Made by a program: the position numbers and the translations under genes. A stretch of DNA of 7,514 nt from Anaerolineales bacterium (GTDB taxonomy: Bacteria > Chloroflexota > Anaerolineae > 4572-78 > NAK82). Positions 1-7,261 of this stretch are shown here, one piece after another. Positions within the stretch are counted from its first letter, which is position 1. Every line of letters begins with the position of its first letter. The notes beneath the pieces are model-generated. The model did not search any database. It was not told where the DNA came from and saw only the letters and a list, made by a program, of their open reading frames with translations. The stretch covers positions 1 to 7,514 of the forward strand of contig JAHELX010000293.1 of the NCBI GenBank assembly GCA_024643945.1, in the 5' to 3' direction.

Positions 1-2462
1 ACAAAGGTGTAAAAGGCGGCTCCATCCCACACCACCACGTGGAATTCCTGGAGCGAGACGCCAAAGTTTTTGGCGGCCAGTGTGGCAGCGAAGGCCAGAC
101 CAGTCAGTGCCATTACCCCCAAGTCAAGGTTGCGGGTGGGCGAGGTGACGAGTCTCTGTATCCACCACTTCTTGCCTTCCAGATTCGTCGCTTCGTTGAT
201 CCGGTAAACTACCTGAGCAGCGGCGGCCAGCACGCCGGCCGGGGGTAGCAGTATCAGAGCCAGCGCCGGCCAGTTGGCATCTGCAAGGGCGCCCCTATTC
301 GCCGCCGGTATCAGCGTCAGCAAGCCGAACAGGGTAGCGATCGCGGCCAAGACCCAGGCAGCCCAGTCGAGCCAGCCAAGCCGGTGGCAAGACCGACTTG
401 CATGGGCATCGTCTCTGAGCGCCCGTACTTCGGTGTCGATCAAGATCACGGCGCGGCGGGCGACGCATGCCAGCGCCAACAGCACCAGACTGACCTCGGT
501 CATCGAGATGGTACGTCCGGCCAGGGACTTGGGCAGCAAGAAGAAGGGGAGGCTAAAGGCCACCAGGGTCAGCCCCAGGTCAGGACGGGGGAGGATGGCC
601 AGAAAAAGAAGGCCCATCAGTCCCAGGGAAGGAAGGGTTCGCGGTGCGAAATAGAAGGCCAGGGCGGTTCCTGCTATGAGGAGCCAATGGGTTGGGGTGC
701 CCAGCTCCAGGTAGTGGGTATAGAGCCTCTCTCCCCACTGCAGCGCCCGTTGGACGTCGCGTAGGGGAATGCGGCGCGTTGAGCGGACCAGCCCGCTAAC
801 CGCCACGATTGCCATCCCACCGACCAAGATCAGCCCCAACTGGATAGTTCGCGTGTCTCCCTCGCGGCTCACCCGCCAACCAACAACTGACCACTGATAC
901 CAGCCTCCTTCAGCTTCAATGACGGCGGTGTGGGGACCGTCGGATAGGTGGCGGGCCAGGGTGACAGCGTCTTCCTGCTCCAGGGGATCATAAAGCACTA
1001 CGTAGGCGCGCCCTGCCTGTTGCGGCAAACTGTTGGCTGGTTGGCCGTCAATTGTCACGTACAAAAAGCCTCGAAAGGCTCCCCGGCGTACCATCAGGTC
1101 CAGGCGCGTGCCCTCGAACGGAATGGTCAGCCTGGCAGGTGGCTGGCGTGGCACGTCGGCGCCGGCGGGCGAAAAGCGCCAATCGCCGGCGTAATGGCCC
1201 GATGGGTGATGGGCCGGGTAGGTGCCAACGGTGGCGATTTCCTCGCCAGGCAAGGGTTCGCTGGCACCGCTGATCACGTGGCGGCGCATGGCCTGGGCCT
1301 GAGGCAGCAGGGTTTCTCCGGCGACCAGTGCCAGCCCACGCCGGGGATCGTCTTCCGGCAACGTCTCGGCGTCCCAGGCGGCGAAGAACATCGGACCCAT
1401 CCAGTACCAATTGGCGCGGGCCTGGCGGATAGCTTGGATGGTATAGGTCGCTTGTTGGTCGGAGGACAGCGCCGGCCAGGGGGAAGGTCCTCCCCCCCAG
1501 TCCTGGGGCAGGGCGCTCCAGCCGAAGGCGCTGGCCCACACCGGCTTGTTCTTATCCCCCTGGGCGACCATCGCCTGATGCAGCAGTTCCGCACGGGCAA
1601 AATTGAGGCTCTTTTCGCCGGGGGGCGCGGTGGGCTCCTGGTCGAAGCCGTAGGGTTGGGCGGCAACTACGTCGAACCAGGGGGCGGCATTGACAGCGTA
1701 GAGGTCTGCCAGAAAGGTAGGCTCGTTGAGGTTGAGCGGGCCGGTTTCTACTGTGGGGGCCAAGGCGGCTGTCAGTACCATGGCGCCAGCGTCGGCGGCG
1801 CGGACGTTGACCGCTCCTTCGCGCAGCAGACGCGCGTAGGCTGTCGGGTCTACAAACCGGTCGCCCCAGTGCGCGCTGAGGTTAGGTTCGTCCCAGATTT
1901 GGTAATAGTCGATCCGATCGCCGTAACGTTCGGCCAGGGCGCGGGCGAAATCTCCAAAGTCGGCTAATTCGGTCGGTGGGGTGAAGGAGCTGGTGTTGGG
2001 AGGGCGTGCCCAGGCAGGTGTCGTGTCGAGTACGGCAATGAGTTGCAGGCCATGGGCGCTGACTGCTTCCACTACCCGATCCCAGGGGGCCCAGTTAGAC
2101 TGACCGGACGTAGGCTCGATCTCAGCCCAAGGAAAGGGTTGGCGTATCCAGCGCAGTCCCAACTCGTTCATCCGAGCCAGAGTGTGGTCAAGGGCCGCAG
2201 GTGGGTAGCGGGTCAGGTCGGCGTTGACGCCATAGGATTTGTCGGCAGCGAGCGGGATGGTAGGAGAGGGGCCGGGGTACGACGACTGGATGTGACGGAG
2301 GTCTAATCCCAGCCAGGTGCCGACGCCAGCCAGGATGATCAGCAGAGCAAGCCAGAAGACTGGCCACCTATAGGGTCTCATCGAAGCATTCGATATCAGG
2401 GAGCCTGGCAAACGACGGTCTACTTCCTGGCTGTTCCTCATCTGGCTGTTGGGGGTCTGCAT
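1..2462 (-). CDS. Membrane protein: degenerate glycoside-hydrolase-like barrel + beta-sandwich + O-antigen-ligase-like segment (3' end outside window)
   Basis: Reading the minus strand from 2462 gives about 820 codons with no stop; the 3' end lies beyond base 1. Numbering from the inner ATG at 2381: a membrane anchor (about 5-28, WPVFWLALLIILAGVGTWLG), then a clan-A-type TIM barrel (about 50-340). The barrel has strand-4 motif YYQIWDEPN (candidate acid/base Glu165) and strand-7 motif KPVWASAFGW, where relatives usually have Glu but Ala285 is present. A beta-sandwich-like region (about 385-505, e.g. LYVTIDGQP) follows, then hydrophobic spans from about 513. LPRPDLGLTL and VSLQEFHVVVWDGAAFYTF resemble the N-terminal half of O-antigen ligase/polymerase-family proteins. 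A role in surface polysaccharide assembly or binding is inferred. In-frame ATGs exist at 2462, 2441 and 2381. I chose 2462 for GGAGAAGG at 2471-2478; 2381 lies nearest the anchor. The gene starts 38 nt after the upstream kinase stop, so co-transcription is likely. Confidence 0.8.
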   Translation of the reverse strand, partial: MQTPNSQMRNSQEVDRRLPGSLISNASMRPYRWPVFWLALLIILAGVGTWLGLDLRHIQSSYPGPSPTIPLAADKSYGVNADLTRYPPAALDHTLARMNELGLRWIRQPFPWAEIEPTSGQSNWAPWDRVVEAVSAHGLQLIAVLDTTPAWARPPNTSSFTPPTELADFGDFARALAERYGDRIDYYQIWDEPNLSAHWGDRFVDPTAYARLLREGAVNVRAADAGAMVLTAALAPTVETGPLNLNEPTFLADLYAVNAAPWFDVVAAQPYGFDQEPTAPPGEKSLNFARAELLHQAMVAQGDKNKPVWASAFGWSALPQDWGGGPSPWPALSSDQQATYTIQAIRQARANWYWMGPMFFAAWDAETLPEDDPRRGLALVAGETLLPQAQAMRRHVISGASEPLPGEEIATVGTYPAHHPSGHYAGDWRFSPAGADVPRQPPARLTIPFEGTRLDLMVRRGAFRGFLYVTIDGQPANSLPQQAGRAYVVLYDPLEQEDAVTLARHLSDGPHTAVIEAEGGWYQWSVVGWRVSREGDTRTIQLGLILVGGMAIVAVSGLVRSTRRIPLRDVQRALQWGERLYTHYLELGTPTHWLLIAGTALAFYFAPRTLPSLGLMGLLFLAILPRPDLGLTLVAFSLPFFLLPKSLAGRTISMTEVSLVLLALACVARRAVILIDTEVRALRDDAHASRSCHRLGWLDWAAWVLAAIATLFGLLTLIPAANRGALADANWPALALILLPPAGVLAAAAQVVYRINEATNLEGKKWWIQRLVTSPTRNLDLGVMALTGLAFAATLAAKNFGVSLQEFHVVVWDGAAFYTF
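2427..2450. repeat. Short direct repeat (ctggctgtt x2, 15-nt period) in the start region
   Basis: Two exact copies of the 9-mer ctggctgtt lie at 2427-2435 and 2442-2450. They fall between the candidate ATG codons of the membrane protein and give an N-terminal extension with NSQ twice (NSQMRNSQE). This may be chance or a small slippage duplication. Confidence 0.5.
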
Positions 2463-2500: not shown

Positions 2501-3712
2501 CTACTCTTCGTCAACCCAAATAGGCAAGACGAAGTGAAAGGTAGTGCCCATGCCCTCATCGCTCTCAACCCAGATGCGGCCATAGTGGGCTTCGACGGCC
2601 AACTTGCAGAAGGTGAGCCCCAGGCCTACACCCGCACGTTGACCTTCAGCGCGGATACCCGCTTGTGCAAATTTCTCGAAGATATGCTCGTGTTGCGACG
2701 GGGGGATGCCGTAGCCGGTGTCGGCAACGGAGAATTGAACCCCAGCCGGTGTTCGGCGTGCGCTGAGGGTGATACGCCCGCCAGGAGGGGTGAACTTAAG
2801 GGCGTTGTCAGTCAAATTCCCGATAATGCGTATCAGGGAAGTGTAATCTGCCCGAACGGGGGGCAATCCTTGCGACACGTCGATCGCGGCGGTTAAGTCG
2901 TGCATAGTAAGCATCGGCTGTATCTCGTCCAGACAGGTTTGGATCACGTCGCCGGGCGCGATTGGTTGGAGTTCTAATGGCATACGTCCTTCCTCTAGCC
3001 GGCGAACGTCAAGGATGGCGCTGGCGAGTTTCAAGGCCCGCTCGGCCGAAATCAGAGCGCTTTCCAGAAGTTGAGATTGCTTGTCGTCCAGGTTCTCGTC
3101 CAGGGTCCCTTTGAAGTAGATCATCGCTCCTTGAATGACGCCCAGAGGGTTTTTCAGGTCGTGAATGATCATATTGGAGAGGTTTTCTTTCCACATATCG
3201 GCTTCGCGTAGCCGGATGTTGGCTTCTTCCAGTTCAGCGTTGCGCAGCTCCAATTCTGCCTGACGCTGCTGCAGGGCCTGGGTTAACTGGCGGTTGCGTC
3301 GACGCAGTTCGGCTCGTTCCAGTACCTCGGCGGCCACGGTGATAATCTCCCATGGATGGACCGGCCGGATGAGGTAATCTTCGGCGCCCTGCTTGAGGGC
3401 GTTGGCGGCCAATTGCTCAGCCCCGTAATCAGTCATAGCAACTATGCAGGCTTCGGGAGCAGATGCTTTCAATGAGGCAACCAGCTCTGAGTCATCGGCG
3501 TCGCCCGTGGCGACGTTGGTGATGATCAGGTTGGGCTGTTCCTGTCGGGCGTGGCGGAGTCCGTCGGCGGTGTTGGTAGCAGTGATCACGCGATACTCGG
3601 TCTCGTTGAGGGCCTTGGCGATGATGCGTAGACTCAGGTCATCGTCGTCAATGACCAGCACAGTGGACGACGAGGCTGGCCCGGTTTCCTCTTCAAAAAA
3701 AGGGGAGGACAT
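2501..3712 (-). CDS. Soluble receiver-histidine kinase (pseudo-REC, coiled coil, HisKA, HATPase)
   Basis: Protein of 403 aa. Receiver-like domain at about 17-130: acid pocket IDDDD (21-25) and Thr94 are present. The phospho-acceptor position is Asn66 (NLIITN; AAC at 3517-3515), and the conserved Lys is Arg116 (DYLIRP). A charged coiled coil (about 130-172) leads to a HisKA domain with H-box MIIHDLKNP (His184). The HATPase has N-box GNLTDNALKFTPPGG (Asn299, Asn303), G1 DTGYGIP (Asp331) and G2 GVGLGLTFCKLA, all intact, so autokinase activity is expected. There is no membrane segment, so it should be cytosolic. The frame stays open upstream to 3868, but that would overlap the previous gene. The ATG at 3712 has GAGGGAG 8 nt before it. 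The gene starts 43 nt after the preceding, homologous kinase. The partner response regulator is not in the window. Domain calls are firm; physiological role unknown. Confidence 0.93.
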   Translation of the reverse strand: MSSPFFEEETGPASSSTVLVIDDDDLSLRIIAKALNETEYRVITATNTADGLRHARQEQPNLIITNVATGDADDSELVASLKASAPEACIVAMTDYGAEQLAANALKQGAEDYLIRPVHPWEIITVAAEVLERAELRRRNRQLTQALQQRQAELELRNAELEEANIRLREADMWKENLSNMIIHDLKNPLGVIQGAMIYFKGTLDENLDDKQSQLLESALISAERALKLASAILDVRRLEEGRMPLELQPIAPGDVIQTCLDEIQPMLTMHDLTAAIDVSQGLPPVRADYTSLIRIIGNLTDNALKFTPPGGRITLSARRTPAGVQFSVADTGYGIPPSQHEHIFEKFAQAGIRAEGQRAGVGLGLTFCKLAVEAHYGRIWVESDEGMGTTFHFVLPIWVDEE

Positions 3713-3720
3713 AGCTGTGG

Positions 3721-3727
3721 CTCCCTC
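3721..3727 (-). promoter_or_regulatory. Shine-Dalgarno that fixes the start of the second kinase
   Basis: The minus strand has GAGGGAG, 8 nt before ATG 3712. This decides against the longer open frame starting at 3868, whose first 52 codons would overlap the upstream kinase gene and encode a non-domain Arg/Ser/Pro-rich stretch. Confidence 0.75.
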
Positions 3728-3755
3728 GATGTCAGGGCGGAGAGCAGTCAAAGGA

Positions 3756-5423
3756 TCAGGATCTGGCTTTCGATTTCTGATTGCTAGACTCCTCGATCCT
3801 GCGATTCGCCAGCTCCCGGTATTTCTGATCCTCGTGGACGCGAAAGGCGACGTAAAAGGTGCTGCCACGTCCCTGTTTGCTCTTGACCCAGATGCGGCCT
3901 TGCATTGCGTCAGTAGCCAGCTTACAAAAGGCGAGACCCAGACCGAAGCCGGGTTGCACTAACCCACTTTCAAAACTCATCTGGCGGAATTGATCGAATA
4001 TGATTTGCTTTTGATCGTCAGGGATGCCTGGCCCGGTATCTTGCACGCTGAAGACCACGAAGTCATCTTCTAACCGGGAGCTGAGGGTGATTTCTCCTCC
4101 CGGCGGTGTGAATTTGATGGCATTGTCGAGCAGATTTTCGATCACCCGTTGGGCCACTACCCAGTCGACCCACAAGGGGGGAAGATCCTCTTCCAGGTCG
4201 GTGCGCGCGCCTACCTCCTGCACTTCCAGCATTGGGGCCAATTGCTCCAAGCTGGACTCGATCAGACTATTGGCAGCGATTGGCTCCATGCTCAGGGGCA
4301 TTTGCCTTTCTTCCAGGCGTTGCAGATCGAGTAGAGTGCCGGTGAGGCGTACCAGTTGCTGGCCGGCGGCCAGCGCGCCGTTGAGCGTCTCCTGTTGGCG
4401 TTCGCTAAGTTCAAGCGTGGCGTCAATTTGCACCAGCGTCAGGGCACCCATTATGGCGCTGAGAGGAGCGCGCAAATCGTGGACGACCATACTGGTAAAG
4501 GCCTGCTTGGCGCTATGCAGGAGGCGCAGTCGCTCGTTGGTCATCTGCAATTCTTTGTTCTGACCTTGCAGGGCTTGTCGTGTCTCCAGCAGACGGCGAT
4601 TGGTCTGTCGGAGCTGATGGGTCAATTCTCGGTTCAGTCGTCGCGCTCGCAACTTCTCCAGTGCGGATCTGACGGTGAGGATCGCCTGCCAGGGTTTGAT
4701 AGGTTGGAGCAGATAATCGTCCACGTCTTCCAGGATGGCCGTGGACATCTCTGCTTCCTGGTCAATGATGGTTATGATGGCCGGGTCGCCATAGGCGCCT
4801 CGTGCGTGAGATAGAATGGTGCGGCCACCAGGCAAATCGTCGTTGATCAGGATCAGGTCGGGTTGTGTGGCTTGGGTCAAGCGTAGCCCGCTGTTCACAT
4901 CCTGGGCGGTGAAAACGTGGTAACCATAGTGGTTGAGGGCTTTAGCGATGCTGGCGCGTTGTTCCGGGTTGTTATCGATAATGAGCACGACTTCGCCCGT
5001 CTGGCCGCCGAAGAGGCGATCGGGTTCGACCATGGCCCAGACGATCTCCATCATGCGCCGCAAGTCGGTGGGCTTGGGCATGTAGGCATCAACGGAGATA
5101 ACTGGTTGGTCGGGAGCCAGGACAAGCCGGCCGTCGGGGCCTCGATCAGGGATAGCCAGAGCTGTATGCAGCAAAATCGGGATGTGGCGGGTTGTTTCGT
5201 CCTCGCGCAGTTGCAGGCAAACCTGAAGTCCATCCACGCCGGCCAATAGCAGGTCGAGGATGATCAGATCGGGATGTTCCCGCCGGGCCAGGCGCAAACC
5301 TGCCTGCCCATCAGCGGCGACCGACACCCAGAATCCTTCTCGCCTCAGGACGGCCTGAAGTTTTTCTAGAGTTTCGGCATCCTCATCCATCAGCAGAATA
5401 CGTTTTGAGGTTTGTGCCGCCAC
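3756..5423 (-). CDS. Soluble histidine kinase with two N-terminal receivers (REC, pseudo-REC, HisKA, HATPase)
   Basis: Protein of 555 aa. REC1 (about 8-132) looks competent: acid pocket Asp13/Glu14, Asp57 in PDLIILDLLL, Thr87 and Lys117 in AYMPKP. Thr-to-Lys spacing is 30 residues, about 8 more than CheY. REC2 (about 144-255) is degenerate: acid pocket DNN (150-152), Asn194 for the phospho-acceptor (PDLILIN; AAC at 4844-4842) and Gln240 for Lys (DYLLQP). A coiled coil (about 255-305) leads to the H-box MVVHDLRAP (His315). The HATPase has N-box ENLLDNAIKFTPPGG (Asn430, Asn434), G1 DTGPGIP (Asp462) and G2 GFGLGLAFCKLA. No membrane segment or periplasmic sensor is present, so input probably comes by phosphotransfer to REC1 or from a cytosolic partner. 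The start is GTG with GAGGG 6 nt upstream. The last 20 or so residues are charged and non-domain. Residues about 144-530 align throughout with the next gene, implying tandem duplication. Confidence 0.94.
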   Translation of the reverse strand: MAAQTSKRILLMDEDAETLEKLQAVLRREGFWVSVAADGQAGLRLARREHPDLIILDLLLAGVDGLQVCLQLREDETTRHIPILLHTALAIPDRGPDGRLVLAPDQPVISVDAYMPKPTDLRRMMEIVWAMVEPDRLFGGQTGEVVLIIDNNPEQRASIAKALNHYGYHVFTAQDVNSGLRLTQATQPDLILINDDLPGGRTILSHARGAYGDPAIITIIDQEAEMSTAILEDVDDYLLQPIKPWQAILTVRSALEKLRARRLNRELTHQLRQTNRRLLETRQALQGQNKELQMTNERLRLLHSAKQAFTSMVVHDLRAPLSAIMGALTLVQIDATLELSERQQETLNGALAAGQQLVRLTGTLLDLQRLEERQMPLSMEPIAANSLIESSLEQLAPMLEVQEVGARTDLEEDLPPLWVDWVVAQRVIENLLDNAIKFTPPGGEITLSSRLEDDFVVFSVQDTGPGIPDDQKQIIFDQFRQMSFESGLVQPGFGLGLAFCKLATDAMQGRIWVKSKQGRGSTFYVAFRVHEDQKYRELANRRIEESSNQKSKARS

Positions 5424-5596: not shown

Positions 5597-7261
5597 CTAA
5601 GGCGGAGTGAGTTCCCCTGTTGGCGTTACCCGATCACTGGTGGTTACCGGAACCGTGGACGTAACGACTGGTGCGCTTCCTATCCCAGGCGTAACTTGTC
5701 TGCCAGTATATCCGGCTGCCCAGCGCGGTTGACTGTTTTGATTGTTCGACGTGAGTTGTCTGGGGGAAGCGTCTTCAACATTGGTCAGGTACAGATTTCC
5801 ATTATACACGAAGATGAAATTTTGACCATTTGGCGACCAGGCGATTTGAGGTGGGGGTTCTACACCTGGCTCTTCGGCCAGCGGGAACAGCCGGCGCGGG
5901 TTGCTGCCGTCTCGATCGCGAAGATACAGCGCGTAGCGGCTGTCAACCGACTGGAGCGGGTTGACCGCCTGCCCATAGACGATCCCCTGTGGACCCCAGG
6001 CCGGCGATGTCCACATGCCCACCTGCTCGGCCACCCGCGCCTTCAGCGGTCCATCAGCAGCGAAGAGCCACAGGTCGAAGGCAGGGCTGTCTTGCGCATC
6101 CTCGCCAGCTACCGGCGACCCGTGGACCACGGCAGCTATAAATTGGCTGTCGGGTGACCAGGCCAGCGAAGGTACCCACACCCATTCGCTGTAAGTTTGA
6201 TAGGCGGCAAAGTCGACGAGCACGGTGGTGGTTCGGCTGAGGATATCCACCACGCCAATTTGGTCGGCGCGGGCATAGGCGAATTTGCGCCCGTCGGGTG
6301 ACCATTTGAAAGAAGTGCCCCACCAGCTATACACGCCGGCGGTGCTGGGGCTGATGACCTGGGTTGCGCCCGTAAGTCCCCTTTGGGAACTGGTGACAGG
6401 ATCGCTCGCCTGGATGAGCCACAAGTCGTTGTTGGCGCGCCAACCAGGCGAACTGGCCGTTCGCTCAGCTGTACTGTAGGCGATTTGGGTTCCGTCGGGC
6501 GACCACCCGGCGTAGAGCACCCCGCGGATGGGCAACGAGATGGGAGTCTCACCCACGATGGTCGTGTTGACCATCCACAATTGGTTGAGGGGCGTTTCGA
6601 TGTTTCCCTCCAGGCGGCGGCTGTAGAGGAGCTGGCGTCCGTCGGGGGAAAGGTCGAATACCCGGCCGTCCAGGTCACCCTCGGTGGTCAGCGGGCGCCG
6701 CCCGGCGCTGGTGTCGCGCATCACCCAGGCATTGCCCGCCGACAGGTAGGCCACTGCGCCGCTCAGCGGGACCGCCGCCAGGCGGTCCTGGGCACCCACG
6801 GCGATAATCTCGTCGACCGGCTCGATGATCGGCGCCTGCGAAACCTCGGTCCGTTCCACCTCAGCGCCGTTTTCCAGGACGGCCCGGTAGGTGATTTCGT
6901 CTTCGCCGTTGACGCCGAGCTGGATGAGCCGGGTTTCACCCGCCGGCAGCGCTTCGTTGGTCACGGTCTTGCGTTCAAAAGGGACCGACACCCGGGTCGT
7001 TTCGAATTGTTCCTCGACGCGGGTGACGACGATGACCATGCCTGGTTCCGTCTCCACGTACAGGTCGGGGCTGACCCGGTCCAGGGGGCCCAGGCTAACG
7101 CCAGCAACGGCCAGTGCATCGCGGACGGTGGTCGCGTCGGTTGTGACCGCCCGGCGGCTGTGATCCACTTCAATGAATAGTTGCCGTGGTTGGTCCTGGC
7201 AGCCGACCAGCCCCAGCAGGGCCACCGCCAGCGCGGCGAGCAGACAAGGTTTGAGTCTCAA
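5597..7261 (-). CDS. Secreted lipoprotein with DUF348-like, G5 and TolB-type beta-propeller domains
   Basis: Protein of 554 aa. The signal peptide MRLKPCLLAALAVALLGLVG ends in lipobox LVGC with Cys21 as lipidation site, so the mature protein should be membrane-tethered outside. About 27-80 resembles a DUF348 ubiquitin-like repeat (TTVRDALAVAGV). About 83-157 resembles a G5 domain (PFERKTVTNEALPAGETRLI), a fold linked to cell-wall or glycan binding. About 165-515 is a propeller with WSPDG-type turns at 203, 252, 319, 367, 421 and 474, suggesting six blades. The tail (522-554) is Thr/Pro/Val-rich and probably disordered. No enzymatic residues are recognisable; ligand binding or scaffolding is inferred. 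The start is TTG at 7261: a stop lies in frame at 7265-7267, and no later start keeps the basic n-region. No clear Shine-Dalgarno is seen. The start codon lies inside a heptad repeat. The next gene begins 173 nt downstream, after a strong hairpin. Confidence 0.9.
   Translation of the reverse strand: MRLKPCLLAALAVALLGLVGCQDQPRQLFIEVDHSRRAVTTDATTVRDALAVAGVSLGPLDRVSPDLYVETEPGMVIVVTRVEEQFETTRVSVPFERKTVTNEALPAGETRLIQLGVNGEDEITYRAVLENGAEVERTEVSQAPIIEPVDEIIAVGAQDRLAAVPLSGAVAYLSAGNAWVMRDTSAGRRPLTTEGDLDGRVFDLSPDGRQLLYSRRLEGNIETPLNQLWMVNTTIVGETPISLPIRGVLYAGWSPDGTQIAYSTAERTASSPGWRANNDLWLIQASDPVTSSQRGLTGATQVISPSTAGVYSWWGTSFKWSPDGRKFAYARADQIGVVDILSRTTTVLVDFAAYQTYSEWVWVPSLAWSPDSQFIAAVVHGSPVAGEDAQDSPAFDLWLFAADGPLKARVAEQVGMWTSPAWGPQGIVYGQAVNPLQSVDSRYALYLRDRDGSNPRRLFPLAEEPGVEPPPQIAWSPNGQNFIFVYNGNLYLTNVEDASPRQLTSNNQNSQPRWAAGYTGRQVTPGIGSAPVVTSTVPVTTSDRVTPTGELTPP

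Follow-up and report, generated by a model that had tools for sequence, protein, structure and literature searches.

The stretch of DNA analysed here, called the window (7,514 nucleotides (nt) of contig JAHELX010000293.1 from an Anaerolineales bacterium, assembly GCA_024643945.1), carries at positions 3–2462 of the minus strand, where all the features described below also lie, a gene joining a PslG-like barrel to a WaaL-like membrane transferase. The frame of 820 amino acids is uninterrupted, starts with the ATG at 2462–2460 and leaves the window at base 1; it represents residues 1–820 of about 1,130, the C-terminal third lying beyond that base. A ribosome-binding-like GGAGAAGG (2471–2478) is found 8 nt upstream of the ATG, which is separated by 38 nt from the stop codon of the preceding gene. 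A sequence-only reading of the window had proposed that one uninterrupted frame connects an anchor helix, a clan-A-like TIM barrel, a beta-sandwich and polytopic segments resembling O-antigen ligases, and all of these parts were seen in the predicted structure of a close relative, P0003. The N-terminal membrane anchor helix (residues 26–61; 2280–2387), placed by the hydropathy of P0003 and by the model, is followed by the clan-A (beta/alpha)8 barrel (residues about 72–405; 1248–2249), for which sequence and fold matches were also obtained, and by the beta-sandwich (residues about 410–535; 858–1235), into which the alignment with PslG extends and where a weak CE2_N-like match remained below its cut-off. 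A return transmembrane helix (residues 538–562; 777–851), indicated by hydropathy and the model, leads to the WaaL fold, whose first part, from about residue 624 (3–593), is ended by the window edge. Both motifs named in the sequence-only reading are read in frame: RPDLGLTL (564–587), with a conservation of 0.94–0.99 at R626, P627, D628, G630 and L631, and the REF-like QEFHVVVWDGAAFYTF at the end of the frame (3–50), the family consensus being REWRVV (A1) or REFRVV (A2).

Full-length relatives represent the part of the protein that the window lacks. A search of 5.8 billion proteins, with 7,994 candidates scored, gave 857 homologs at E ≤ 1e-3, the best 120 of which underlie the homolog figures from this search, and a genome search gave 49 loci with fusion homologs (L001–L049). 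Since there are 857 homologs and 49 genome loci, and since 78 aligned sequences share many invariant columns, the frame is not a chance one. The nearest seven relatives (P0001–P0007) are all full-length, with 1106–1153 residues and 81–92% identity; precomputed annotation placed PF04932 (Wzy_C) on all seven and GH42 also on five. The Pfam search of the 820-residue window chain detected no Wzy_C match, because the Wzy_C part falls past the window edge, and its sole match was a weak one to GH42 (24 bits). When five full-length relatives were rescanned, each exceeded the curated Wzy_C cut-off of 31.7 bits, with scores of 55–70 bits (64 bits for P0003). Together with the WaaL fold predicted after the barrel and sandwich of P0003, these matches support the proposed fusion of a barrel to an O-antigen-ligase-like region.

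The C-terminal half also has the arginines and histidines expected of an O-antigen ligase: R868, R885, R972, R987, H1032, H1034 and H1092 were invariant in all 112 long homologs. In the alignment with the solved WaaL structure (7TPG), R987 and the histidines of the HPHN motif (H1032/H1034) fall on RLKIW and HAHN; their counterparts there, numbered by hand count, are R265 and H311/H313. In the excerpts of PMC3643930 that we used, R288, H338 and R215 of Escherichia coli WaaL are described as important and as conserved in PglL. R987 and the loop histidine may be the equivalents of R288 and H338, and position 927, a candidate counterpart of R215, is Lys in 60 and Arg in 52 of the 112 homologs. Judged by sequence and model, the membrane half belongs to the WaaL/Wzy_C superfamily as a putative transferase of lipid-linked glycan, for which ligase, polymerase and protein transferase are indistinguishable from these data. 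In P0003 the transferase loop 1022–1030 (DAWQEPNLS) resembles the barrel motif 187–195 (YQVWDEPNLS) and is matched by the barrel profile, probably by chance.

A hydrophobic stretch upstream of the barrel was present in 99 of the 109 long homologs with sufficient N-terminal sequence, and a second one after the sandwich in 111 of 112. The charge bias at the first helix weakly favours an inside N-terminus (43 for and 18 against, of 99). The barrel probably faces outward, as the WaaL-type loops would. In two loci, L045 and L046, the segment linking the barrel to the membrane part is far shorter and seems to lack the beta-sandwich, and both retain the nucleophile Glu of the barrel; in the L046 genome the membrane part is divided between two frames.

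The barrel proved to be of the clan-A type, as had been proposed, and its family could be refined. By sequence and by fold its best solved match was PslG, which is of the GH39 class and covers both barrel and sandwich. GH42 and GH35 were rejected as the barrel family, giving short N-terminal matches only, with PslG much closer; the match to PF02449 (GH42 beta-galactosidase) spans profile positions 10–75 of 376 and scores 24 bits against a cut-off of 21. The excerpts available of PMC11912335 and PMC6813494 describe PslG as a retaining endo-beta-glucanase with Glu165 as acid/base and Glu276 as nucleophile. Neither of the two GH39 hallmarks is complete in the window. The Asn-Glu-Pro acid/base motif reads DEP (D191-E192; 1887–1892), with the Glu retained and the preceding Asn replaced by Asp, in the context IWDEPN (WNEPN in PslG and in the majority of stand-alone barrels). 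The nucleophile Glu at strand 7 is replaced by Ala312 (1527–1529; VWASAFGWS versus WSTEWGWS in PslG).

These replacements extend to the family. We compared 197 fused barrels, comprising the window, the listed homologs and the genome loci (overlapping sets; 232 of the 238 barrel rows in total are distinct), with stand-alone barrels, that is, those without a membrane-part match in the same frame. Only the best barrel-profile hit of each sequence was counted, and six fusions ending at a contig edge were scored as fused. The full ancestral set of Asn, acid/base Glu and nucleophile Glu was intact in none of the 197. The Asn slot was occupied by Asp in 127, His in 68, Asn in one and Glu in one, and the acid/base slot by Glu in 191 and Gln in six. 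The nucleophile slot still held Glu in 26 and another residue in 170, namely Ala (107), Asn (19), Gly (15), Ser (15), His (10), Thr (2), Gln (1) or Pro (1); one row had a gap. The single barrel with Asn has Ala as its nucleophile residue and is not on the tree described below in that state. The search patterns for the genome loci included DYYQIWDE, which favours members with the Asp-Glu pair among L001–L049; the protein-search set, free of that pattern, has the same nucleophile loss (117 of 121 for the window plus 120 listed homologs). As a within-genome control we used 40 stand-alone stretches (41 rows) from 12 genomes, picked from the stronger matches among those listed and excluding matches with internal stops, one short match, weaker ones and fusion fragments. 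All three residues were intact in 35 of these 41, while the fused copies in the same 12 genomes had Asp for Asn in 12 of 12 and had lost the nucleophile Glu in 9 of 12. Five of the six other stand-alone barrels form a clade (L091, L093, L096–L098) that is also without the catalytic set (SE/S, ER/S, SE/K, NE/R and SE/R), and the sixth, L087, has Lys for Asn.

A quick maximum-likelihood tree was built from 179 of the 238 barrels with the three catalytic columns removed; fused rows more than 80% and stand-alone rows more than 95% identical to a retained row were dropped. All 138 fused barrels fell on one side of a single branch with a support of 98 in the Shimodaira–Hasegawa-like approximate likelihood ratio test, and 59 of the 176 inner branches were open. 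On this quick tree the fused barrels thus form one clade. Asn was absent from all 138, and the Asn-slot trait changed three times over the whole tree; the nucleophile trait changed seven times inside the fused clade. Among the fused members, L111, L113 and L120 branch off first; they already have Asp and still have the nucleophile Glu. L015 and L019 lie deep in the clade and carry Glu, which may reflect regain or mis-placement.

The barrel cleft of the fused proteins was conserved in the rows that had lost the nucleophile. In these 120 rows the conservation of the cleft-face columns was 0.746, compared with 0.597 elsewhere in the barrel (permutation p 5e-5, the minimum attainable with 20,000 shuffles), and in the Glu-keeping fused rows the values were 0.762 and 0.653. 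Cleft columns were taken as the strand ends; strand 5 is two residues long in the model, and the range around it was chosen by hand. Barrel columns with at least 90% identity numbered 69 in the nucleophile-lost set of 120 and included the acid/base Glu along with numerous Trp and Tyr residues. Three positions separate the two groups of barrels: E239, after strand 5, is found in 99% of fused and in 13 of 35 intact stand-alone barrels; N244 in 100% of fused barrels and 7 of 35 stand-alone rows; and V144 in 93% of fused barrels, where Arg is present in 34 of 35 stand-alone rows. Judged by its conservation, the cleft of the fused barrels is still under selection.

The fusion is common in one class of bacteria. 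All 49 genome loci were assigned to Chloroflexota groups, names such as Thermoflexia among them being ones that we take to belong to this phylum. Matches at E ≤ 1e-100 were obtained in 86 of 100 genomes of the class of L001. Both halves stood in one match row in 48 of the 100, among them G040, whose row has internal stops. A further 13 had two rows on one contig with equal open-frame length, which gives 61 of 100 with the fusion; three of the 100 (G001–G003) had been found via the fusion itself. A draw across the phylum at the stricter cut-off of 1e-130 gave matches in 9 of 121 genomes, the centre genome included.

Taken together, the architecture found in the relatives, the single clade, the occurrence in 61 of 100 genomes, the transferase Arg and His residues and the lost classical catalytic set are computed support for the explanation that we favour, with a probability of roughly 0.55: a WaaL/Wzy_C-type membrane transferase that carries, in cis, a PslG-derived barrel for gripping glycan. 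The membrane half would be a ligase or polymerase handling lipid-linked chains, with the barrel and sandwich as part of the same chain, exposed outside the membrane. In most members the barrel would no longer perform classical double-displacement hydrolysis; its conserved cleft would instead grip the nascent or incoming glycan and hand it to the transferase half, and this grip may set chain length or substrate choice. Several observations weigh against this explanation. Both Glu residues are retained in 17 of the 138 non-redundant fused barrels, and likewise in the fused copies L006, L019 and L046 from the 12 control genomes, so that some members may still cut. The acid/base Glu is almost invariant, beyond what a mere binding role needs. 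Stand-alone rows have a cleft contrast in the same direction (0.645 versus 0.550, p 0.0036), and the contrast is therefore not special to the fusion. The mutual placement of barrel and membrane halves in the P0003 model is uncertain (full-length predicted template-modelling score 0.70). In PslG itself, a double mutant of both catalytic Glu residues yields little Psl according to the excerpted text of PMC6813494, which means that there cutting matters and not gripping alone.

The alternative that fares best, though we consider it improbable on balance, is that the barrel is still enzymatic through substrate assistance, the 2-acetamido group of the substrate standing in for the nucleophile and an Asp/His-Glu pair replacing Asn-Glu as in GH20 and GH123, and that it trims or transfers a chain that contains N-acetylhexosamine and is the product of the fused transferase. 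In the parts of PMC11087588 and PMC9016705 consulted, GH123 enzymes and a GH20 enzyme are reported to have a consecutive Asp-Glu pair with the substrate acetamido group replacing the nucleophile, and fused members with Asp-Glu, the window included, likewise have the pair and lack the enzyme nucleophile. The uniform lack of Asn on the tree (138 of 138), the seven changes of nucleophile state, the acid/base Glu in 191 of 197 and the enrichment of E239 all favour it. The earliest branches (L111, L113 and L120) have Asp together with the nucleophile Glu, an order that fits a permissive first step. However, PslG and GH39 are the nearest solved relatives of the fused barrel, and in 68 of the 197 the residue preceding the Glu is His instead of Asp, which speaks against a uniform version. 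The barrel that still has Asn though its nucleophile is gone, the six with Gln as acid/base, the open inner branches of the quick tree and the Glu of the deep-lying L015 and L019 also count against it. We give a similarly low chance to a historical scenario in which, after a single fusion, Asn changed to Asp (later to His in some) and nucleophile loss followed repeatedly, leaving a one-chain machine that would transfer a chain and edit or re-join it by substrate-assisted or synthase-like chemistry.

Somewhat less probable still is a fading leftover, in which the barrel would be active in the few lineages with both Glu residues and elsewhere serve as a structural spacer with no glycan role. The variety of residues at the nucleophile slot (A, N, G, S, H, T, Q and P) is like relaxed selection at that position, and the separate stand-alone clade has lost its catalytic residues too, but the 69 nearly identical columns of the nucleophile-lost rows and the greater conservation of the cleft face count against it. 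Very unlikely, in our estimate, is a natural glycosynthase-like barrel with Ala, Gly or Ser as nucleophile residue and the base kept, which would form beta bonds from alpha-linked lipid-diphosphate donors. Ala, Gly and Ser are the nucleophile replacements of engineered glycosynthases, they occupy the slot in 137 of 197 fused barrels, and the donors of Wzy and WaaL proteins are lipid-diphosphate linked; however, the slot also holds Asn, His and Thr, the membrane half already provides a transferase site, and we know of no natural glycosynthase of this kind. Least probable of all is that the membrane half is an IctB-like transporter instead of a glycan transferase: TIGR00947 (IctB) scored 40–51 bits on three of six proteins scanned, but its best score, 50.6 bits, is far under the equivalog cut-off of 366.4.

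The genes around the fusion were compared over the 49 loci, with open reading frames taken from their longest possible start and neighbour families named from one representative each, in L037. A G5/DUF348/beta-propeller lipoprotein-like gene stands directly upstream in 38 of the 49 loci (four have no upstream frame to judge) and overlaps or abuts the fusion in 32 of the 38. The window homolog of this gene lies at 5597–7261; there, two receiver-plus-histidine-kinase genes (2501–5423) sit between it and the fusion, and in L001 and L002 homologous kinase genes occupy the same place. With its start as listed, the kinase gene 2501–3868 overlaps the preceding gene by 113 nt, so its real start is probably later. 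Downstream genes are not visible in the 10 loci that stop at the fusion gene. Elsewhere, 27 loci carry an NAD-dependent epimerase, 27 a second Wzy_C-like protein, 25 a GT4 glycosyltransferase and 19 a GtrA-type protein, and these neighbours suggest a single cell-surface glycan pathway. The second Wzy_C-like protein (27 loci among L009–L049) has no barrel and carries HAHN in 27 of 27; one pathway thus seems to use two such transferases. A small Macro-kind gene follows the fusion in eight loci (Pfam was run on L009, L011 and L026), and in L040 a Macro domain is joined to the C-terminus of the fusion protein (L040:5923–9627). No RNA element reached the gathering threshold in the window, where a promoter scan gave 2 sites versus 1.8 in shuffles and a terminator scan 6 versus 6.4. 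A defence-system role was also considered and set aside, PADLOC giving no match for the three proteins tested.

We found no description of the fusion in the open-licence literature searched. Both Pfam labels are already placed on such proteins in databases, so the architecture is recorded, though not described in the open papers searched. What is new is the single fused clade in which the ancestral catalytic set is lost and the cleft conserved, a residue history for which the literature was little searched. Among the closest known systems, in which we count the SEDS glycosyltransferases FtsW and RodA, the WaaL O-antigen ligase (7TPG) and the Wzy_C superfamily including PglL differ from the fusion in that it adds about 620 N-terminal residues with the barrel and that its hosts are Chloroflexota. 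PslG, of the Psl cluster of Pseudomonas aeruginosa, is alike in its inner-membrane association, its barrel and beta-sandwich and its place in a membrane polysaccharide machine, but it is made as a protein of its own and has both catalytic Glu residues, whereas the barrel described here is joined to a WaaL-type domain, with Ala at the nucleophile in the window member. According to the excerpts of PMC6813494, both the activity and the membrane association of PslG matter for Psl production, and earlier evidence is called controversial. Exopolysaccharide gene clusters often include a glycosidase of unclear purpose, as noted in the abstract of PMC9075953, and PslG is one such. The barrel–WaaL/Wzy fusion is a natural, physical link between the glycosidase and transferase functions. 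That most fused copies have lost the nucleophile while keeping the cleft and the acid/base Glu suggests a barrel whose essential job is something other than classical cutting. The role of such cluster glycosidases becomes directly testable within one chain, and the fusion is a marker of a surface-glycan pathway in a large class of bacteria.
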